DNA of 64,000 nucleotides from Telluribacter roseus (GTDB lineage Bacteria > Bacteroidota > Bacteroidia > Cytophagales > Spirosomataceae), in assembly GCF_017355915.2 (NCBI RefSeq), contig NZ_JAFEUV020000006.1:186001-250000 (forward strand), given 5' to 3'. Below are positions 24,219 through 61,224 of this stretch, piece by piece; within the stretch, counting starts at the first letter, position 1, and each line of letters starts with the position of its first letter. A program made the translations under genes and the position numbers. The notes beneath the pieces are model-generated. The model was not told where the DNA came from. It was given only the letters and a program-made list of their open reading frames with translations, and ran no database searches.

Positions 24219-25628
24219 TTGCTGAGTTTTTTTAGAGTTAATGCCGTCTACCAAAACATCAGCCTGGTGCTGTTCTTTTTGCTGTTGCGGCTACCTTTTG
24301 TGTTGACTGATGTCCCCCTGCTGGTTCCGGAGCTGAACTGGATGCTGGTGGGCGAGCAGATGAGCCGGGGCTTTATGCTGTACCGTGACATCTGGGACAA
24401 CGTGAGCCCTTTTTCGGGGTTGGTGTACTGGTCCATTGATACGCTGTTCGGGCGATCACAGTGGACCTATCAGATTATTGCGGCGGTACTTTCCATCTTC
24501 CAGATCCTGTACTTCAACTACGTCATTCACTCCCGTGAACTGTTTACGGAGCGGAGTTACGTACCGGGGGCTATTTATGCCCTCATGCTAAATATATCGT
24601 TTGATATGGCCACGCTGTCTCCCATGCTGATGGCGACTACCTTCCTGGTACTGGCCTTTGGTACCATGGTCAAAACAATAACCCGCCGTCAGGTTACCAA
24701 TGAGGTGTTTGAGCTGGGGATGTACATCGGAGTAGCTACGCTCTTTTATCTGCCGGCCTCGGTGTTTGTGATCTGGGCTTCGGTGTCGCTGCTGTTTTAT
24801 ACGGGAGCTACGTTCCGGCATTACCTGCTGGGCTTTTTCGGATCGGCTTTCCCGCTGCTGATGGTGGTGCTTTTTTTCTACCTCAACGACGGCATCAATA
24901 GCCTTAACCGCAACCTGCTTACTTCGGTGTTTCAGGTAAGGCAGTACAATCTGAATGATTTCTCGTCCCTGCTGATCTCGCTGCTTATTCCGCTGGTAGT
25001 AGGGGTGATGGGCTTTATGAGGTTGTTTAGTTCGGCCCGGTTTGTCAACTACCAGGCGCGGATCCAGCAGATCATGGCGATCTGGTTTTTTACCTCCATC
25101 CTGACCATCCCGCTTATGTCCTACCTGGCGCCGATGCAGTTTGTGATCTTCATTCCTCCGGCGGCTTTCTTTGCGACACACTACTTCCAGAGCTTCAAGA
25201 AGCAGTGGGCGGCTGAACTGGTATTCCTGGGTGTAATGGGAGGCATCCTGTTGATCCAGTACCAGGGCGTACTCGATCTGGTGCCCCAGCTATCGGTGGG
25301 GCGTCTGGAAAACCTCCGGACTAAACAAGCCCTGCTCCCGGAGGAGATCAAAGGAAAGCACATACTGGTGCTGGGCGAAGACGAAGGCGAGTACATGAAT
25401 AACTTCTCGGCCACCCCTTACCTCAACTGGGATCTGGCCAGCTATGACCTCGAGAATCTGGACAACTTTGACAGCGTCATCCACGTCTACGACAACTTCC
25501 GGCAGGACCCTCCGGAGTACGTCATCGACAAGCAGAATATCATGCCCAAGCTGTTTGAAAGGGTGCCGGCCCTCAAGAGCCGCTACAAGCCCAGCAAGTG
25601 GAAGGGTATCTATCAGAAAGTAGGGTAG
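24219..25628 (+). CDS. Multi-pass membrane protein of unknown function
   Basis: 469-residue integral membrane protein with roughly ten or more hydrophobic helices and a C-terminal soluble segment of about 110 residues (GKHILVLGEDEGEYMNNF...). The layout recalls GT-C-like or DUF6427-type membrane proteins of Bacteroidota, but I cannot assign a function. The start is TTG 24219, giving MLSFFRVNAVYQ, which fits the short N-terminus of such proteins; no ATG is available before residue 42. A bidirectional terminator separates it from convergent rpiB. Confidence 0.75.
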   Translation: MLSFFRVNAVYQNISLVLFFLLLRLPFVLTDVPLLVPELNWMLVGEQMSRGFMLYRDIWDNVSPFSGLVYWSIDTLFGRSQWTYQIIAAVLSIFQILYFNYVIHSRELFTERSYVPGAIYALMLNISFDMATLSPMLMATTFLVLAFGTMVKTITRRQVTNEVFELGMYIGVATLFYLPASVFVIWASVSLLFYTGATFRHYLLGFFGSAFPLLMVVLFFYLNDGINSLNRNLLTSVFQVRQYNLNDFSSLLISLLIPLVVGVMGFMRLFSSARFVNYQARIQQIMAIWFFTSILTIPLMSYLAPMQFVIFIPPAAFFATHYFQSFKKQWAAELVFLGVMGGILLIQYQGVLDLVPQLSVGRLENLRTKQALLPEEIKGKHILVLGEDEGEYMNNFSATPYLNWDLASYDLENLDNFDSVIHVYDNFRQDPPEYVIDKQNIMPKLFERVPALKSRYKPSKWKGIYQKVG

Positions 25629-38466: not shown

Positions 38467-41436
38467 CTACTGGCCCATTACGTTGAAGCCAGTGATATGC
38501 TTCTGGAATATGGCATCGTACTTGGCAGTTGCCTGAGCCTGATTGGATTCGCGGCAGGCGTTAACAATGGTCTGCAGGATGTACAGGTCAATGTTAGCGT
38601 CACGCTGGTTCAGCGAGCCGTGTCTCTTCACAAAATTCAGGTTTTCGTCAGAACGACGCGCCATTGTATCAGCTATCTCAAGGGCCTTCTTGTTGTTACC
38701 CATCTGGAAGAGCGGGCGGATATAGTTAGCCGATATCTGGTCGTACGGGATACTCTCATCCGGCATTACCGTCAGGGCTCTGTCCATGGCTTTGCGGGCT
38801 TCTTCTACCTTATTTTCAGAAAGCAGCTGACCCACCAGGCGCAGGAACGAGATACGGGCTGTGAATATAGGCGACCCCAGGTAGGTATTGTCATAGTACA
38901 CATCCGGGTTGTTGAGCTCACGCCAGAACATCTTGTCCATCATGGTCTTGTACATGATATCGGAGTTGACATAGCCGTCCGTAGCACCGGGTACCCGTAC
39001 AGGCAGCAGGCGGAAGGCGTAGCCTTCTAGCTGCATGTACTCTTTCAGGTTGAGGTAGTTGGATCCGGCCAGCGTAGACGAGAAGTAAATAGGACGCTTC
39101 CAGTCGTTGGTGGAAATAATATCCAGCATGATCAGGTCCGACTTGTACAGGTCACGGTTGCCGATGGTCCAGCTGATCGAGTCGCTCAGGAAGGGCGCAA
39201 AGTCGCTCTTGATGATATTCATCTTCCGTACCTCTTCTACATTAACGGGCAGGAACAGCACAGACGAAGGCAGGATAGAGGTCATATCCCCGCTGGTAAG
39301 AGGTACCTGGATCGCCTTGTTTTCCTGCTTTACCAGGCTCATGTACTCTTTCAGGTTGATACCGCCTTTAACGCCGGGTATTTCGTAGAAAGGTACAATG
39401 TCATTCTTACCAAACGCGTAGTTGTTGGCTTCGAGCGAAATCGGTAGCGCCTCCGACTCGTAGGTCTTGCGCTTCATCTGGTTGATGTACCAGTCAGTAC
39501 CCAACAGACTCAGGTTACACACCCGGACGTCGGTCCGGAAGCCTTCTACCTCCTGCACGTACCAGAGCGGGAAGGTATCGTTATCCCCACCCGTAAACAG
39601 AATAGCATTAGGCGCACATGAGTTGAGCAGGTTACGGGCAAAGTCTACCGAGTGGTAGCGGTTGCTGCGGTCGTGGTTGTCCCAGCCTTTGAAACCCATC
39701 ATAAGAGGCACGGCCAGTCCGAGCGCGGCCGCTACGGCCGAGCGGGTGGTGGCGTTCTTGAGGAAGGCCGCCATACCTTCGGCAATGGCTATGACACCAA
39801 AGCCTATCCACATACAGAAGATATAGAACGAACCTACGTAAATGTAGTCACGCTCGCGGGGCTCTACCGGTGGAGAGTTGAGGTATACAACCAGGGCTAC
39901 TCCCGTGAGCAGGAACAGCAGTCCGAGTACCAGCAGGTCACGGCGATTGCGGAAGTACTGGATCACCAACCCAAGCAGACCCAGGATAAAGGGCAGCATG
40001 AAGAAGTTATCGTGCGCTTTGTTTTTAGAGATGATCGAAGGATATTCCTTGGAGACATCCCAGGGTAGCAGGTTACCGGACCCTTCCTCGTCGCTTTCAC
40101 GACCTACGAAGTTCCAGAGGAAGTAGCGCCAGTACATATGCCCGATCTGGTACGATAGCATAAAGCCAATGTTGTCAGCCAGGGTGGGTTTCTGGCCTTC
40201 GGCCAGGCCGGTCATCTCGCGGTAAAGCTGCGGGTGGCTGCCCTGGGTGCTGTACATACGAGGTAGCAATACGTTGGCTCCGGGCTCATACTCATACTCC
40301 GGGCGGTAGTCATAGACCACGTACTTGCCATTCTGACGACGGTACATAGGCTCGCCGCGTTTCTGGCTGATTGGCCGCGACACAAACGTAGGACCGTACA
40401 GCAGCGGACGGCTACCGTACTGCTCACGCTTAAGGTACGATACAAAGCTCAGTACATCCTGAGGGTTGTTCTCGTTGATAGGCGGGTTGTAGTTGGCTCG
40501 TACCAGTACCATCAGGTAGCTGGCGTATCCGATCAGCACGAAGGTCAGGGAGAGCAGGGCTACGTTCAGGATCACTTTGTTGTTTTTCTCCGAGTAGCGA
40601 ATACCCCAGACCAGGGCTCCCAGGAACAGGATCACAAAGAATATCACGCCCGAGGTATAGGGGAGGCCGAGGGTGTTAACAAAGAAGATCTCAAACTTGC
40701 CCGCCATACTAGGTAAGCCGGGTATAATACCCGAGTTGATAATACCCAGTACTACCAGTCCGGCACCAAAGGCCAGAATACCACCAAACAGGCTGATGTT
40801 TTTATTCTTCTTGAAGTAGTACACCAGGGCAAGGGCCGGCAGCGTCACGAGGTTGAGCAAGTGAACGCCAATCGAAAGTCCTACCAGATAAGCGATGAAG
40901 ATCAGCCAGCGGTTTTCGGCAGCTTCGTCTTCGATACGCTCCCACTTAAATACAGCCCAGATCACGATAGCCGTAAAGAATGACGACATACCGTATACTT
41001 CGGCTTCAACAGCCGAGAACCAGAAGGAGTCAGACCAGGTATAGGCCAGGGCACCTACTGCCCCCGCTCCCAGCAGCAGAATCGAATCAGCAGTGGTGAG
41101 GGCTTCGTCGGTTTTGGCCAGGAGCTTACGACCCAGCAGCGTGATGGTCCAGAACAGGAAAAGTATGGTAAAAGCACTAGTCAGAACCGATACCATATTG
41201 ACCCAGAAGGCCACACTATCCAGATCACCAAAAGCAAACATGGAGAAAAGCCGACCGATCATCAGGAAGAAAGGAGCCCCCGGCGGGTGGGGTACCTGCA
41301 GCTTGAAGGCACAGGCGATAAACTCACCACAGTCCCAGAAGCTGGCCGTAGGCTCTACGGTAATAGAGTAAGTAAGTAAAGCAATCGCGAATACAATCCA
41401 ACCGGTAAGGTTGTTGTAACGTTGAAAAGGGGTCAT
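38467..41436 (-). CDS. DUF2723 membrane protein (TMEM260-like O-mannosyltransferase fold)
   Basis: 989-residue polytopic membrane protein. The N-terminus has the family signature TVEPTASFWDCGEFIACAFKLQVPHPPGAPFF, where the acidic DCGE is the likely catalytic/metal region of this GT-C-type fold. About a dozen helices follow, then a 400-residue soluble C-terminal part with helical repeats. The vertebrate homologue TMEM260 is a protein O-mannosyltransferase; the bacterial relatives are thought to act in periplasmic O-glycosylation, but this is inference here. It stands alone between two terminators. Confidence 0.88.
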   Translation of the reverse strand: MTPFQRYNNLTGWIVFAIALLTYSITVEPTASFWDCGEFIACAFKLQVPHPPGAPFFLMIGRLFSMFAFGDLDSVAFWVNMVSVLTSAFTILFLFWTITLLGRKLLAKTDEALTTADSILLLGAGAVGALAYTWSDSFWFSAVEAEVYGMSSFFTAIVIWAVFKWERIEDEAAENRWLIFIAYLVGLSIGVHLLNLVTLPALALVYYFKKNKNISLFGGILAFGAGLVVLGIINSGIIPGLPSMAGKFEIFFVNTLGLPYTSGVIFFVILFLGALVWGIRYSEKNNKVILNVALLSLTFVLIGYASYLMVLVRANYNPPINENNPQDVLSFVSYLKREQYGSRPLLYGPTFVSRPISQKRGEPMYRRQNGKYVVYDYRPEYEYEPGANVLLPRMYSTQGSHPQLYREMTGLAEGQKPTLADNIGFMLSYQIGHMYWRYFLWNFVGRESDEEGSGNLLPWDVSKEYPSIISKNKAHDNFFMLPFILGLLGLVIQYFRNRRDLLVLGLLFLLTGVALVVYLNSPPVEPRERDYIYVGSFYIFCMWIGFGVIAIAEGMAAFLKNATTRSAVAAALGLAVPLMMGFKGWDNHDRSNRYHSVDFARNLLNSCAPNAILFTGGDNDTFPLWYVQEVEGFRTDVRVCNLSLLGTDWYINQMKRKTYESEALPISLEANNYAFGKNDIVPFYEIPGVKGGINLKEYMSLVKQENKAIQVPLTSGDMTSILPSSVLFLPVNVEEVRKMNIIKSDFAPFLSDSISWTIGNRDLYKSDLIMLDIISTNDWKRPIYFSSTLAGSNYLNLKEYMQLEGYAFRLLPVRVPGATDGYVNSDIMYKTMMDKMFWRELNNPDVYYDNTYLGSPIFTARISFLRLVGQLLSENKVEEARKAMDRALTVMPDESIPYDQISANYIRPLFQMGNNKKALEIADTMARRSDENLNFVKRHGSLNQRDANIDLYILQTIVNACRESNQAQATAKYDAIFQKHITGFNVMGQ

Positions 41437-45603: not shown

Positions 45604-46902
45604 ATGAAACGACTCGCACTGCACTGGCAGATCTTGATTGGTATGGTAGCTGGTGTAGGCGCCGGATATGCTCTATCGGCCTTTACCTGGGGTACCCAGT
45701 TTGTCATCGATTGGATCAAGCCCTTTGGTACCATTTTCATCAATCTGCTGAAGCTGATTGCTATTCCGCTCATAGTGGCTTCGCTGATCAAGGGAGTATC
45801 AGACCTGCAGGATATCCGCCAGCTTTCGCGGCTGGGTACCCGTACCATCGGCCTGTATCTGGTTACGACCATCGTTGCCATTACCATAGGATTACTCGTA
45901 GTCAATTTGATTAGTCCGGGAAGCTTTATTCAGGAGGCTACCCGTACCGAACTCATGGGCAGCTTCGGCGCCAATGCGGATCAAAGCATGTCTGCCGCCG
46001 CGGCCAACAAGAACCGGGGGCCCCTCACGGCGCTGGTTGAGGTGGTACCCGACAACATCATCGGAGCGGCGGGCTCCAACAGCAATATGCTGCAGGTGAT
46101 CTTCTTTGTGGTCTTCTTCGGCATTGGGCTTATCCTGATCGCCCCCGAAAAGGCGGAGCCGGTCAAGCGTTTTTTTGACGGAGTCAATGAGGTCATCCTC
46201 AAGATGATCGACCTGATCATGCTCGTTGCTCCCATTGGAGTATTTGCTCTGCTGGCGGCCCTGGTGGCCGAGTCGCCTTCCCCGGATATATTCAAGGCGC
46301 TGGGCGTATACGCCCTGACGGTGCTGATCGGGCTGGCGGCGCTCATCTTCCTGTTTTATCCTACTCTGGTTCGCCTGTTTGCGGGAGTGTCGTACGTTCG
46401 TTTCTTTAGGGGAATAGGTCCGGCTCAGCTACTGGCCTTCTCCACCAGTTCCAGCGCCGCCACCCTGCCCGTAACCATGGAGCGGGTAGAGGAGCATATC
46501 GGGGTAGAGAAAGAAGTAACTTCGTTTGTACTGCCGGTAGGGGCTACCATCAATATGGACGGTACCAGCCTGTACCAGGCAGTGGCGGCGGTATTCATCT
46601 CGCAGGCCTTCGGGGATGATGTCACTATTATGGAGCAGCTGACCATCGTGCTGACGGCCCTGCTGGCCTCCATAGGCACAGCGGCCGTACCGGGAGCGGG
46701 CGTACTGATGCTGGTGATTGTGCTGGAGTCCATCGGAGTCAATCCGGCGGGTATCGCCCTGATACTGGCCATTGATCGCCCGCTGGACATGTGCCGCACG
46801 GTCGTCAACATCACCAGCGACGCCACCGTGGCGATCATAGTAGGTAAAAGCCTCGGCAAACTCACGTCGCCTCATCCCAAAAACTGGGACGATAACTTCT
46901 AG
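45604..46902 (+). CDS. Dicarboxylate/amino acid:cation symporter 1
   Basis: DAACS/GltP-family transporter of 432 residues that imports glutamate/aspartate or C4-dicarboxylates with protons or sodium. It has the re-entrant-loop serine motif AFSTSSSAATLPVT, the helix-7 motif GATINMDGTSLYQ and the substrate-binding helix MCRTVVNITSDATVAIIV. About eight helices are visible. A paralogue follows 159 bp downstream; the two differ at the core motif (ATTSSESALPKA in the second). Confidence 0.93.
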   Translation: MKRLALHWQILIGMVAGVGAGYALSAFTWGTQFVIDWIKPFGTIFINLLKLIAIPLIVASLIKGVSDLQDIRQLSRLGTRTIGLYLVTTIVAITIGLLVVNLISPGSFIQEATRTELMGSFGANADQSMSAAAANKNRGPLTALVEVVPDNIIGAAGSNSNMLQVIFFVVFFGIGLILIAPEKAEPVKRFFDGVNEVILKMIDLIMLVAPIGVFALLAALVAESPSPDIFKALGVYALTVLIGLAALIFLFYPTLVRLFAGVSYVRFFRGIGPAQLLAFSTSSSAATLPVTMERVEEHIGVEKEVTSFVLPVGATINMDGTSLYQAVAAVFISQAFGDDVTIMEQLTIVLTALLASIGTAAVPGAGVLMLVIVLESIGVNPAGIALILAIDRPLDMCRTVVNITSDATVAIIVGKSLGKLTSPHPKNWDDNF

Positions 46903-47012
46903 ATTTTGGGTTATTTGTCTTAACAATTGTATTATTCTTTATTTAAGTTGTCTTACGTAAGTAATTGTTAGTAAGCGGGGCTACGTTCGCTTTTATCTTT
47001 CCGCTTTTTTTT

Positions 47013-47020
47013 TATGTTTG
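47013..47020 (+). promoter_or_regulatory. -7 promoter element for symporter 2 (TATGTTTG)
   Basis: Exact TAnnTTTG match 41 bp before the ATG of the second symporter, within a T-rich stretch. It suggests that this gene has its own promoter and is not only read through from the first symporter. Confidence 0.45.
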
Positions 47021-47060
47021 CTAATTATAACAGACATTGTAGCCTCCCTTTACTAATCGT

Positions 47061-48479
47061 ATGAAGAAAAATCTAATCCTACTTAATTGGGTACTGATTA
47101 CAGTCGCCGCACTGACCACGGTACTAAGTGAATACGGAATACTCGCGATATCAGATCCGGTTTTGCTTTCGCTACGCTGGCTGGCGCTGGCCGGGCTGCT
47201 GACGTACGCTTTCATAAAGAAAAACCTTACGACCTCTATTCTGGTGGCCATGCTGGTCGGGACTGAAATAGGCTACGATTTTCCCGAATTTGCTACCAAC
47301 CTGCGCTTCCTGCGTCAGATATTCCTGCAGATGATCAAGACGGTCATTGCTCCGCTCTTGTTTGCTACGCTGGTTGCGGGCATAGCCGGCCATTCGGACC
47401 TGAAGCAGGTAGGGCGCATGGGCTGGAAATCTCTGCTGTACTTCGAGATAGTTACTACCATTGCTCTTTTTATCGGCCTCATATTTGCCAACTGGTTCAA
47501 GCCCGGTGAGGGAATCATACCTCCGGCCTCACTCAACGAAACGTTGCCTAAGGTGGAGCAGCAGGGCTGGCAGAGCATCATCACGCACGCGTTCCCCGAG
47601 AATATCGCCAAATCCATCTACAATGGTGAAGTACTGCAGATTGTGGTGTTCAGTGTAATATTTGGAGTGGCGCTGGCCATGCTTCCTGATGAGAAGAAGA
47701 AGAAGTTTGTGGGTGGCGTAGAGCTTCTGGCCGAGGTGATGTTCAAGTTCACCAAGATCATCATGCTGTTTGCTCCCATCGGGGTAGGTGCCGCCATCGC
47801 CGAAACGGTAGGTCACATGGGTATCGATGTACTTAAGAACCTGGCTATGCTGCTGGCTACGCTGTACTGCGCGCTGCTGGCCTTCCTGGGGCTGGTACTG
47901 GTGCCGGTGGCGCTGTTTGCCCGTATTCCTATCATCAAGTTTGCCAAGAATATCGCCGAGCCGGTTTCGATCGCCTTCGCTACGACCAGTTCGGAGTCGG
48001 CCCTGCCCAAGGCCATGGAGCGGATGGAGAAGTTCGGTGTACCTCGTCAGATTGTTTCCTTTGTAATGCCTACCGGCTACAGCTTCAACCTGGATGGCTC
48101 TACGCTGTACCTGGCGCTGGCTACCATATTTGTAGCCCAGGCATCGGGTGCCGACTTCCCGGTCAGTGAGCAGATCGCCATGGTATTCCTGCTCATGCTC
48201 ACGAGTAAGGGCGTAGCGGGTATACCGCGTGCTACGCTGGTGATCCTTTTGGGAGCGGTAGCTAACTTCGGACTGCCCGAGTGGCCCGTACTGCTGATCA
48301 TGGGTATTGACGAGCTGATGGATATGGCCCGTACCTCCGTTAACGTAATTGGTAACTGCCTCGCCACCGGTGTAATAGCGCGCTGGGAGGGCGAACTGGA
48401 CGACGCCAAAATGCAGGCTTCTGATCAGATACCTGACAATGGTGCTATCAAAGAACTGGAAGAAGCTGAACAGATCTGA
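47061..48479 (+). CDS. Dicarboxylate/amino acid:cation symporter 2
   Basis: Second DAACS-family transporter, 472 residues. It has two extra hydrophobic segments at the N-terminus before the conserved core (VIAPLLFATLVAGIAG). Key motifs are AFATTSSESALPKAMERM, MPTGYSFNLDGSTLYLALATIFVAQ and MARTSVNVIGNCLATGVIARWEG, which resemble the C4-dicarboxylate/glutamate group (DctA/GltP-like). An acidic tail ends the chain. It differs too much from symporter 1 to be a recent duplicate. A rho-independent terminator follows. Confidence 0.93.
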   Translation: MKKNLILLNWVLITVAALTTVLSEYGILAISDPVLLSLRWLALAGLLTYAFIKKNLTTSILVAMLVGTEIGYDFPEFATNLRFLRQIFLQMIKTVIAPLLFATLVAGIAGHSDLKQVGRMGWKSLLYFEIVTTIALFIGLIFANWFKPGEGIIPPASLNETLPKVEQQGWQSIITHAFPENIAKSIYNGEVLQIVVFSVIFGVALAMLPDEKKKKFVGGVELLAEVMFKFTKIIMLFAPIGVGAAIAETVGHMGIDVLKNLAMLLATLYCALLAFLGLVLVPVALFARIPIIKFAKNIAEPVSIAFATTSSESALPKAMERMEKFGVPRQIVSFVMPTGYSFNLDGSTLYLALATIFVAQASGADFPVSEQIAMVFLLMLTSKGVAGIPRATLVILLGAVANFGLPEWPVLLIMGIDELMDMARTSVNVIGNCLATGVIARWEGELDDAKMQASDQIPDNGAIKELEEAEQI

Positions 48480-58021: not shown

Positions 58022-58783
58022 CTATTTCATTACTAAAAACAAAGAACTGCCAAAGGGGGCGCTCGACAGGGCGGTTTCTTCCAGCTTCATGATACCGAGC
58101 AGCAGACCATTGATAAGGTCGCCCGGGTAGCTGACGTCCGAATCAACCTCCTGCCTATTGACCCGGCCACGCCGGAGCTGGTACTGCTGCCACTGCCTGA
58201 CGGCCAGGATAGGTACTGACAGCGCAAAGGGCCAGTAGGTATGGCGTTGAATAGACAGCCCTGCCTGCCCGGCGTACCGCTCAAAGTCTGCGTGCTGAAA
58301 GCGCCGCGAGCTACCCACGGCTACATCATGCGTACCGGCAAAGGCCTCAAAGGCGTGGATATTGACCAGCAGCAGCCCTCCGGGGAGCAGCCTCTTGCGG
58401 AACGAGGTCAGCGCGTTTACAATCTCTGCGTCCGTCAGGAAGTATAGGGCGTCGTTGCAGGTAATAACATCGTAGTGCTCTCCGGGCCGGAAGTCATCCA
58501 CCCGGCGCAGGTCGCCAAAGCTCACGTCCAGTCCTCGTTCCTGCGAGAAGTCAATGGCGTGCCGGGAGTAGTCGAAGCCGGTCAGTTGCGGGTAGCCCTG
58601 CTCACGCAGGTAGGAGAGCAGTCCTCCGGTACCACAGGCCGCATCCAGGATCCGGATGGGGTGGTTGTCCGGGCCAAACTGCCGCTGGATCTGCCGCAGT
58701 ACCCTTCCGTGCAGCGACTGGTACCACCACAGGCGGCGTTCTACATCGTACATCCGCTGGTATTCGGTCCGGTTGTCAATCAT
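58022..58783 (-). CDS. SAM-dependent methyltransferase of the sugar operon
   Basis: 253-residue class I methyltransferase. The N-terminal DVERRLWWYQSLHGRVLRQI resembles the VExxHWWFxxR start seen in methyltransferases next to polyprenyl-phosphate glycosyltransferases. SAM motif I is LDAACGTGGLLSYL, with ITCNDALYFL and LLPGGLLLVNIHAFEA further on. It overlaps the GT2 gene by 8 bp, so coexpression is near certain. It may methylate the amino sugar or its lipid-linked form; the acceptor is not visible. Confidence 0.88.
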   Translation of the reverse strand: MIDNRTEYQRMYDVERRLWWYQSLHGRVLRQIQRQFGPDNHPIRILDAACGTGGLLSYLREQGYPQLTGFDYSRHAIDFSQERGLDVSFGDLRRVDDFRPGEHYDVITCNDALYFLTDAEIVNALTSFRKRLLPGGLLLVNIHAFEAFAGTHDVAVGSSRRFQHADFERYAGQAGLSIQRHTYWPFALSVPILAVRQWQQYQLRRGRVNRQEVDSDVSYPGDLINGLLLGIMKLEETALSSAPFGSSLFLVMK

Positions 58784-59702
58784 GACGGTTCAGGAGGATT
58801 TTCTTGATGACATACTGGGGCTGGCCGCTCTGTGCCATAAAGCTCTTGCCAATGTACTCACCCAATACGCTCAGCAGGGTACACTGGATACCGCCGATCA
58901 GGATGAGCGTGGCCGTAACTACCTGCCAGCCCTTGGGATCGTCGGGACCTATGACCCACTGCCCAAACAGGAACAGCAGTAGCAAACTTCCGAGCCCGAC
59001 CAGGCCCAGCCCCACGGGCATAAACAGCCGGATGGGCATGGCGGAGTAGCAGAACAGGATGTTCAGGAACAGCGAGATAAGCTTGCGCCACGTGTAGCTC
59101 GACTCTCCCTGCTGTCGCTTTTGATGGCTTACCTGCACGGTACCTATGTTGCGCGTCACCCGGAAGATCAGCCCGTCAATGTAGGGGTAGGGGCCTTTGT
59201 ATTTAATGATCTCCTGCACTACGTCCTGCCGTATCAGCTTAAAGCTGGACAGGTACAGGTCCTTGGGTTTGTCGAGCAGGTAGCTGGTCAGCCAGTTGAC
59301 GAGCCGGCTGCCCCAGTTGCGGTAGGAGGCGTGTTCCTTTTTAGCGTAATAGGTATATACCACGTCAAAGCCACCTCGCGTGGCCGCATCTACCAGTTTG
59401 ATGATTTCAGAAGGTGGGTTCTGGAAGTCATCGTCAATCATAACGCAGTACTCGCCCCGGGCGTGGTTGAGGCCGCACATCACGGCATTGAACTCTCCAA
59501 AGTTGCGTCGGAGCGAAATGAACCGGACATTCGGATACAGCTCCGCCAAGTGGGTACATACTTCTTCGGACCGGTCACGGCTGCCGTCATTGACCAGCAC
59601 AATCTCAAAATCAACACCGGCCAGGGCCTGCTGCAGTGTATCGACCAGCGGACTTATCGTACCTTCACTGTTATAAACGGGTATAATGACAGATAGCTGC
59701 AT
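58776..59702 (-). CDS. GT2 polyprenyl-phosphate glycosyltransferase (ArnC/DPM1-like)
   Basis: 308-residue inner-membrane glycosyltransferase. GT-A motifs are VIIPVYNSEGTI, VNDGSRDRS and the metal-binding DDDFQNPPSEI, then KRQQGESSYTWRKLISLF before two C-terminal membrane helices. This architecture is typical of ArnC-like enzymes that transfer a sugar from a nucleotide donor to undecaprenyl phosphate. It starts in a TGATG overlap with the aminotransferase stop and overlaps the methyltransferase, so all are translated together. Confidence 0.92.
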   Translation of the reverse strand: MQLSVIIPVYNSEGTISPLVDTLQQALAGVDFEIVLVNDGSRDRSEEVCTHLAELYPNVRFISLRRNFGEFNAVMCGLNHARGEYCVMIDDDFQNPPSEIIKLVDAATRGGFDVVYTYYAKKEHASYRNWGSRLVNWLTSYLLDKPKDLYLSSFKLIRQDVVQEIIKYKGPYPYIDGLIFRVTRNIGTVQVSHQKRQQGESSYTWRKLISLFLNILFCYSAMPIRLFMPVGLGLVGLGSLLLLFLFGQWVIGPDDPKGWQVVTATLILIGGIQCTLLSVLGEYIGKSFMAQSGQPQYVIKKILLNRHD

Positions 59703-60796
59703 CAGGCTCTTTCAAACTGGTTAAGTACCCGGATCACCTGCTCCACCTCCGCGTCGGTCATCGCCGGGTTGAGGGGCAGGCTCAGCACCTGATCATGAAT
59801 CTGCTCAGTAACCGGCAGGTGGAGGTAGTTGATAGGAGCATAGGCCGGTTGCTTGTGTATCGGCAGCGGATAGTGTATTTCGGTAAGTATGCCCTCCTGC
59901 TGTAAGTACTCCCTCAGTCGCTGGCGATTGGGGTGCCTGACCACAAACAGGTGCCAGGCGTCCTCTTCCGGCCGGTCGGCAGGGGGAAGTACCAGTCCCG
60001 GTACCCTGATCTCCTGCAGATACCGTCGGGCTATCTGCCGGCGACGATCATTTTCTTCATCCAGGTAGGGGAGTTTGATGTTCAGGATAGCGGCCTGTAT
60101 CTCGTCCAAACGGCTATTGATGCCCTGGTACTCATTGTAGTACTTGACACCCGAGCCGTAGTTACGCAGGTACCTGATCTTATCAGCCAGTACCGGATCA
60201 TGGGTCGTAATGGCACCGGCATCACCCAGAGCTCCCAGGTTTTTGGTGGGATAAAAGCTGAAGGCAGTGGCATCGGCCAGGCTGCCGGCCTTCCGGCCCC
60301 GGTAGCAGGCGCCGTGTGCCTGGGCTGCATCGGCTATTACTTTGAGGCCGTACTTGCTGGCCAGCGCCCGGATCGGCTCCATCTCACAGCAGCGGCCGTA
60401 CAGGTCTACCGTCAGGATGGCGCAGGTCCTGTCAGTGATTTTTTCCTCGATCAGGGTAGGATCAATCAGCATGGTGACTGGGTCAGGCTCTACCCACACA
60501 GGCTCCAGCTGGAGGAAGCTTACGGGAAGTACCGAGGCTATGTACGTATTGGCCGGTACAATCACTTCACTACCTGGCTGGAACCCGTACGCCTGCAGGA
60601 TCAGTTCAATGGCTTCCAGGCCGTTGGCTACTCCCAGGCAGTGTGCAGTACCGCAGTAGCTGGCAAAGTCCCGTTCAAAGGTCTGTAACTCCTTTCCCAT
60701 GATGTACCAGCCCGAACGAAGTACCCGTAGGCTGGCCTCTTCTATGGCTGTCTGGTGACGTTCATTGATACGCTGGAGGTCCAGAAATGGAATCAT
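59702..60796 (-). CDS. DegT/DnrJ/EryC1/StrS sugar aminotransferase (FdtB/QdtB-like)
   Basis: 364-residue PLP-dependent aminotransferase. The PLP lysine is Lys185 in [16 protein letters not shown], with DAAQAHGA before it and [27 protein letters not shown] after. These motifs match enzymes that aminate dTDP-3-keto-6-deoxyhexoses to 3-amino sugars. Its position 29 bp after a ketoisomerase gene supports that reaction. It ends in a TGATG overlap with the glycosyltransferase. Confidence 0.92.
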
Positions 60797-60825
60797 AAAG
60801 TGGTGAGGGCCGAACGAGCCAGCCG

Positions 60826-61224
60826 TTATTCGGAATAGGCTTTACTGATGGTAGAAGGAGAAGGATAAGGCTCGTAGATGTAGTCACTCTTGTCATAGTA
60901 TTCGTTGGAAAGTACCAGCAGGATGGCATCCTGTGAAAAAGCCTCCATGGTATGCCAGTCCTCAGGCTCAAGTATCAGGCAGGTACTTGGATCATCCAGT
61001 ACGTAGCAAGCCTCCTCATATCCGTCATTGACATTCACTTTGCAGTGCCCGTGCAGGCAGATCAGTGCGTTCCAGGTCTTTTTGTGCCGGTGCCCGCCTC
61101 TGGGTATTTGCCCGGCTCCATAGATGTAGAATACGCGCCTGATAGGCCCGGGGATAATATTCTCGAATACAGTAAGATTACCTGAATCCGCAGGGTATGT
61201 GTCTAGCTTTATACACTTAGGCAT
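60826..61224 (-). CDS. FdtA/QdtA-like sugar 3,4-ketoisomerase (cupin)
   Basis: 132-residue cupin of the FdtA/QdtA/WxcM family, which converts dTDP-4-keto-6-deoxyglucose to a 3-keto isomer. The family pattern [33 protein letters not shown]...[32 protein letters not shown] includes the catalytic histidine pair. The start is ATG 61224 (MPKCIKLD); the longer frame begins at TTG. First gene of the sugar operon, with an AT-rich 153-bp upstream region that probably holds its promoter. Confidence 0.9.

Follow-up and report, generated by a model that had tools for sequence, protein, structure and literature searches.

A conserved four-gene cassette of Spirosomataceae predicted to supply a lipid-linked, probably methylated 3-amino-3,6-dideoxygalactose

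The 6.3-Mb genome of Telluribacter roseus, a member of the Spirosomataceae, a family of soil and water bacteria, carries on the minus strand of the 64-kb stretch analyzed here (64,000 nucleotides, positions 186,001 to 250,000 of contig NZ_JAFEUV020000006.1; "the window") a cassette of four genes that encode a sugar ketoisomerase, an aminotransferase, a family GT2 glycosyltransferase, and a methyltransferase. We consider it probable that this cassette is a dedicated donor module for a lipid-linked, and probably methylated, form of 3-amino-3,6-dideoxygalactose (Fuc3N) that is used in envelope glycosylation. The argument draws on the gene set itself and its conservation, on the family membership and catalytic residues of the proteins, and on the partial linkage of a membrane protein gene to the cassette.

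Results

The four genes are as follows.

60826-61224, minus strand: fdtA-like gene for a thymidine diphosphate (dTDP)-4-keto-6-deoxyglucose 3,4-ketoisomerase (cupin), predicted to invert C4; 132 amino acids from the ATG; PF05523
59702-60796, minus strand: DegT/DnrJ/EryC1-family sugar 3-aminotransferase of the FdtB/QdtB type; 364 amino acids; PF01041
58776-59702, minus strand: GT2 of the ArnC/GtrB/DPM1 type, with membrane helices at the C-terminus and predicted to transfer a sugar to polyprenyl phosphate; 308 amino acids; PF00535
58022-58783, minus strand: class I S-adenosylmethionine-dependent methyltransferase, predicted to act on the aminosugar and the constant fourth member of the cassette; 253 amino acids; PF13489

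A gap of 29 bases separates the fdtA-like gene from the aminotransferase gene, which overlaps the GT2 gene by 1 base; the GT2 and methyltransferase genes overlap by 8 bases. All four Pfam matches exceed the curated cut-offs (PF05523 FdtA, E 3.2e-29; PF01041, 1.6e-112; PF00535, 5e-31; PF13489, Methyltransf_23, 1.2e-16). The cassette proteins all fall far under the cut-offs of the NCBIfam equivalog models (PseC, ArnB-type, DesI, WecE, ArnC, and others), so none of those named functions applies to them directly. The initial annotation of this DNA had described a four-gene operon with overlapping or nearly abutting reading frames; all of these open reading frames were found as it gave them, and their order is kept in relatives more than expected by chance.

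Of 59 genomes searched with the methyltransferase, 30 gave matches at E 1.3e-47 or better, and these 30 strong loci (that of T. roseus included) together with three weak ones make up a set of 33. The full quartet, in the same order and on one strand, is present at 24 of the 33 loci, all 24 within the same family. Among the others, L043 and L056 (L numbers are our labels for loci) have no FdtA gene beside the aminotransferase gene, L051, L052, and L060 retain the methyltransferase only, L059 lacks the aminotransferase, and the three weak loci lack the quartet. Our named collection, searched with the GT2 alignment, yielded 318 relatives; among the best 80, which were retained, the quartet with gaps of no more than 300 bases occurs at 68. 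The 12 named loci without it (L073, L117, L121, L125, L128, L130, L132, L133, L134, L138, L141, and L143) include some that lie at contig ends, Emticicia loci that lack FdtA, and Fibrella and Fibrivirga loci that lack the aminotransferase. The 33-locus and 80-locus sets overlap, and their counts are not additive. Represented genera are Telluribacter, Arundinibacter, Dyadobacter, Rhabdobacter, Persicitalea, Siphonobacter, Larkinella, Runella, Spirosoma, Fibrisoma, Flectobacillus, and Jiulongibacter, and the genes flanking the cassette vary between most of them. Compared with the nearest relative, from the same genus, the ratios of nonsynonymous to synonymous substitution rates (dN/dS) are 0.114, 0.093, 0.062, and 0.079 for the four genes. 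At L132, a record of Candidatus Sumerlaeaceae from a metagenome-assembled genome (MAG), a GT2 gene (55% identical to that of T. roseus) lies beside a methyltransferase gene (30%) and near an aminotransferase gene (44%); going by its title this record lies outside Bacteroidota, and a transfer is possible.

The ketoisomerase scores 101.8 bits against PF05523 (cut-off 23) and matches the FdtA structure 2pa7 in the PDB at E 1.5e-23, with H45, H47, and H91 aligned to His49, His51, and His95 of FdtA. Histidine occupies these three positions in 95 of 97, 97 of 97, and 90 of 97 aligned relatives, respectively, the exceptions at position 95 being leucine (five) and arginine (two). In the available text of PMC2943079, histidine rather than arginine at position 95 is diagnostic of inversion at C4. 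Because H91 falls at that position, the product is likely dTDP-3-keto-6-deoxygalactose and the aminosugar made from it dTDP-Fuc3N, of the galacto series, rather than Qui3N; the assignment is read from one diagnostic residue, and the few relatives with leucine or arginine there may differ in the configuration of their product. FdtA is present as a single copy in the T. roseus genome. RmlB gave one match above its cut-off (479 bits), in the genome outside the cassette, and an open reading frame beside it is RmlA-like as judged by eye.

The PDB chains closest to the aminotransferase are 5u1z (E 9e-126) and 7n63, both annotated merely as "putative aminotransferase," and QdtB, 3frk (E 1.1e-106, 360 bits). 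The lysine that binds pyridoxal phosphate, K185, is kept in all 104 aligned relatives. The equivalog models for 4-amino enzymes all score far under their cut-offs on this protein, which we predict to be of the 3-amino type (QdtB/FdtB) and to use a 3-keto sugar nucleotide. Ketoisomerization between C3 and C4 followed by 3-amination had been proposed in the initial annotation; the families to which the proteins belong, their active-site residues, and the strong conservation of the gene set support it, with the sugar now narrowed to the galacto series.

GT2 matches both ArnC structures (E 2.5e-39, 138 bits, residues 2-303) and Synechocystis sll0501 (E 2.2e-32, 116 bits, residues 2-300) over nearly its full length, the C-terminal membrane part included, and contains the motif DDDFQNPP. 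It reaches 159.5 bits with the NCBIfam ArnC equivalog, below the cut-off of 529. From its homology to ArnC and sll0501, GT2 is predicted to load the aminosugar onto polyprenyl phosphate. The earlier proposal of such a transfer by an ArnC-type enzyme is supported by the same three lines of evidence.

The methyltransferase has LWWY near the N-terminus and GTHD..VG..RRF as family features, and its AlphaFold model (predicted local distance difference test score, pLDDT, 92.9) adopts a class I fold. With this model as query, VIA-align placed CmoM first (Z 19.6), with TylM1 entries at Z 17.5-18.6; 999 of 1000 chains gave Z of at least 8, so the fold alone tells little about function, nor can it separate N-, O-, and C-methylation. 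The top Foldseek rows are prenyl-diphosphate methyltransferases; we rejected them as a guide because they superimpose poorly (TM-score by query length 0.53-0.60, root-mean-square deviation 7.8-9.6). At the level of sequence, 19 PDB chains match at E 1e-3 or better. Nine carry names of sugar or N-methyltransferases, among them 5bsz, TylM1 entries, CalS10, and 3bxo, annotated as an N,N-dimethyltransferase, which we take to be DesVI; none of the 19 is named as a sugar O-methyltransferase. For this reason we weakly prefer N-methylation over O-methylation. Wider sampling of the methyltransferase added 14 places, 13 of them with distant relatives and one (L192) a second cut of a known locus. Several of the 13 lie beside a multi-pass gene or a GT2 gene (e.g., L180, L181, L182, and L185) and others do not; this type of methyltransferase frequently, though not invariably, neighbors genes for membrane glycosylation, and it is not tied to FdtA.

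An N-acetyltransferase is not part of the conserved unit at the 24 and 68 loci with full cassettes, and the methyltransferase is its constant fourth member, in agreement with the initial annotation, which had placed a methyltransferase where an acetyltransferase would be expected. Hexapeptide proteins are encoded elsewhere in the T. roseus genome, unlinked to the cassette: one of the PglD type (L162) and two that are NeuD-like by eye (L158 and L164).

A family of multi-pass membrane proteins of about 520 amino acids (range about 500-600) is encoded directly 3′ of the methyltransferase gene at 21 of 113 loci scanned with a profile built from three members, whose own loci count among the 21. The 21 belong to Runella, Siphonobacter, Larkinella, L044, and one MAG, with second copies at two Siphonobacter loci, and in many of them this fifth gene overlaps the methyltransferase gene by 4 or 8 bases. 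Other, unrelated multi-pass proteins follow the methyltransferase at L040 and L049, at L053, at L054, and at L059, and a PMT_2 protein adjoins the cassette on the opposite strand at L055 and L058. Counting any multi-pass protein of at least 430 amino acids, 9 of the 32 loci with the methyltransferase in the 33-locus set have one after it, versus 15 of 237 close same-strand gene pairs from the same loci, a background that partly includes those nine; a rough Fisher p after approximate subtraction is 1e-5, with the kinship of the loci uncorrected. Members of the family, for which an alignment of 19 rows (A4) was assembled, share E54, D58, and R86-P87 after the first membrane segment, an acidic and arginine pattern that resembles the first-loop motif of GT-C glycosyltransferases; no profile match supports the resemblance. 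By motif and topology the family is a candidate periplasmic GT-C transferase. It had no match in the plasmid collection.

In T. roseus a homologue of this protein lies at another locus (C2:84962-86545, 684 bits), unlinked to the cassette and beside a gene that by eye resembles glycoside hydrolase family 3 (GH3); two more distant paralogues are present in the genome. A GH3-like gene is found beside or near the multi-pass gene in T. roseus, L193, and L194. One also lies in the neighborhood of the cassette at 27 named loci of the Dyadobacter type and at L036, a suggestive bridge that could record an old linkage of the multi-pass gene and the cassette. Close copies of the multi-pass gene (>500 bits) occur in only 6 of the 59 genomes searched, versus the quartet at 24 of 33 loci, and we rejected a close co-occurrence of the two across the family. 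A fixed donor module combined with an exchangeable last step is the most economical interpretation. The initial annotation had looked to co-occurrence with a membrane glycosyltransferase, and this holds in part: a multi-pass family does follow the methyltransferase at the 21 loci, but the DUF2723 protein encoded in the window is unlinked.

Around the T. roseus homologue (L172:2527-11164, contig C2) we see by eye a small glycan cluster comprising the GH3-like gene, three GT2-like genes, and others, parts of which recur at L193 and L194. At L174:7101-11280 (contig C14), the interval between ilvB/ilvN-like and ilvC-like genes (by eye) encodes two multi-pass proteins, one of them a distant relative of the fifth-gene family, as well as a class I methyltransferase. 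L181, L187, and L191 each show a similar ilvN-like gene with genes for a methyltransferase and a multi-pass protein close by.

Two membrane proteins encoded elsewhere in the window were considered as partners of the cassette and set aside. One is the DUF2723 protein (38467-41436; PF11028, E 6.6e-76), a 989-amino-acid protein of the TMEM260/DUF2723 type that resembles protein O-mannosyltransferases; it lies about 17 kb away, and no linkage was seen. The other, a multi-pass open reading frame at 24219-25628, is far off, with no linkage seen and no Pfam match. The window also holds a tandem pair of multi-pass transporter-like genes at 45604-48479 (432 and 472 amino acids).

Discussion

We suggest the following route. 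RmlA and RmlB, encoded outside the cassette, would supply dTDP-4-keto-6-deoxyglucose, which the FdtA homologue would convert to the 3-keto galacto sugar and the aminotransferase to dTDP-3-amino-3,6-dideoxygalactose (dTDP-Fuc3N). The methyltransferase would methylate this sugar, most likely at the 3-amino group, either before transfer, while it is still a nucleotide sugar, or afterward. The ArnC/GtrB-like GT2 would place it on polyprenyl phosphate at the cytoplasmic side of the membrane. Once flipped, the lipid-linked sugar would serve as donor for a multi-pass membrane glycosyltransferase, presumably of the GT-C type, that modifies an acceptor, which we suspect to be an envelope glycan. This last step may fall to the product of the operon's fifth gene in some genera and, in T. 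roseus, to its homologue at the other locus.

Several observations weigh against this proposal. At 26-29 bits, the methyltransferase is weakly similar in sequence to sugar N-methyltransferases, and its fold agrees with that of almost every class I enzyme. Its distant relatives occur next to GT2 genes or genes for multi-pass proteins at places that lack a neighboring FdtA, which indicates that this methyltransferase family is not confined to aminosugars. Profile comparisons with Pfam and the PDB gave no match for the multi-pass family, hhalign gave no support for a relationship to three PMT_2 proteins, and its structure model, built from three sequences, is poor (mean pLDDT 46); nor did profile comparisons detect an ArnT match for the adjacent membrane proteins. 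The sister species, the nearest relative used above, has the cassette with no close copy of the multi-pass gene (best 214 bits, versus 684 in T. roseus), so this family cannot be a universal partner. Finally, no flippase is linked to the cassette, and the only GtrA-family match in the genome is unlinked and modest (41.6 bits).

Some of the same observations suit other interpretations. The cassette could belong to a standard pathway to N-acetylated Fuc3N (Fuc3NAc), in which dTDP-Fuc3N is N-acetylated by an unlinked acyltransferase, and either this sugar or the acceptor glycan is the target of O-methylation by the methyltransferase. The PglD-type and NeuD-like hexapeptide proteins would be available for such a step, and the distant methyltransferase relatives that pair with GT2 and multi-pass genes do so with no aminosugar enzymes. 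No acyltransferase gene, however, is included in the conserved unit, which at 68 of the best 80 named loci consists of the four genes, and we consider this pathway unlikely.

We think it distinctly improbable that the methyltransferase, merely co-regulated with its neighbors, targets something other than the sugar, either the acceptor or the lipid carrier. The prenyl-diphosphate methyltransferases at the top of the Foldseek rows would suit such a target, as would the retention of the methyltransferase with GT2 where FdtA or the aminotransferase is absent (L128, L130, and L134), but those alignments are poor and VIA-align puts other class I enzymes first. We give very little credence to the possibility that GT2 places the aminosugar straight on a membrane lipid, as a glycolipid head group that the methyltransferase completes. 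Some GT2 enzymes with membrane helices do glycosylate membrane lipids directly, and neither a flippase nor a transferase is linked to the cassette in the T. roseus genome; on the other hand, the full-length match to ArnC and sll0501 extends through the C-terminal membrane part, and at some loci of the family a gene for a multi-pass protein comes immediately 3′ of the cassette. We continue to prefer the explanation that the cassette is a donor module, with Fuc3N on a lipid carrier, probably in methylated form, as its product.

The proposed route combines elements of several known systems. With the dTDP-Fuc3NAc pathway (FdtA and its partners in Aneurinibacillus; wxc in Xanthomonas), it shares, as far as the available text of PMC2943079 and PMC4878081 describes that pathway, a C4-inverting ketoisomerase with three histidines followed by a 3-aminotransferase. 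In place of the acetyltransferase of that pathway, the cassette has a methyltransferase and an ArnC-like GT2, and the lipid-phosphate route is a prediction of ours; for Xanthomonas, the available text of PMC4878081 proposes a FucNAc branch from the same nucleotide sugar with an acetylated product. The antibiotic pathways with the N-methyltransferases TylM1 and DesVI have the same succession of ketoisomerase, aminotransferase, and class I methyltransferase, the latter with the same fold. They differ from the cassette in that its methyltransferase resembles theirs weakly and its sugar is predicted to be destined for a lipid carrier and the envelope, not for a natural product. ArnC, which acts with ArnT to put 4-amino-4-deoxyarabinose on lipid A, aligns with the cassette GT2 over its whole length, and the donor would likewise be a polyprenyl-phosphate aminosugar; here, however, the sugar is predicted to be a 3-amino-6-deoxyhexose, GT2 falls short of the ArnC cut-off, and no ArnT counterpart was matched among the adjacent membrane proteins.

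Three-component periplasmic glycosylation consists, in the available text of PMC11127046, of a lipid-linked donor, a flippase, and a GT-C enzyme. The cassette shares with such systems (GtrA/GtrB/Gtr; GT136) a GT2 that is GtrB-like by homology and, at some loci, a neighboring multi-pass protein, a candidate GT-C enzyme whose first loop has a GT-C-like motif; it differs in making its own nucleotide sugar, in carrying a methyltransferase, and in having no linked flippase. By analogy, the cassette fits the first component of this scheme with sugar synthesis and methylation added.

In the open PMC literature, a scope that excludes subscription papers and preprints, we found no description of this four-gene set and no dedicated paper on the envelope glycans of Spirosomataceae. 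What the analysis offers is the prediction of a specific sugar, methylated Fuc3N on polyprenyl phosphate, together with its route, in this family. More tentatively, and with some doubt, we speculate that there is a family-wide envelope modification in which a constant module provides N-methylated Fuc3N on polyprenyl phosphate, and exchangeable multi-pass transferases, which would represent new GT-C families, attach it to different surface glycans. Such a sugar would be ravidosamine-like, ravidosamine being an antibiotic sugar that is N-dimethylated Fuc3N; if the methyl group of the cassette sugar is on nitrogen, a modification best known from antibiotic sugars would enter envelope glycobiology. 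With its fixed donor genes and varying membrane protein, the family would be well suited to the discovery of new periplasmic glycosyltransferases and their acceptors.

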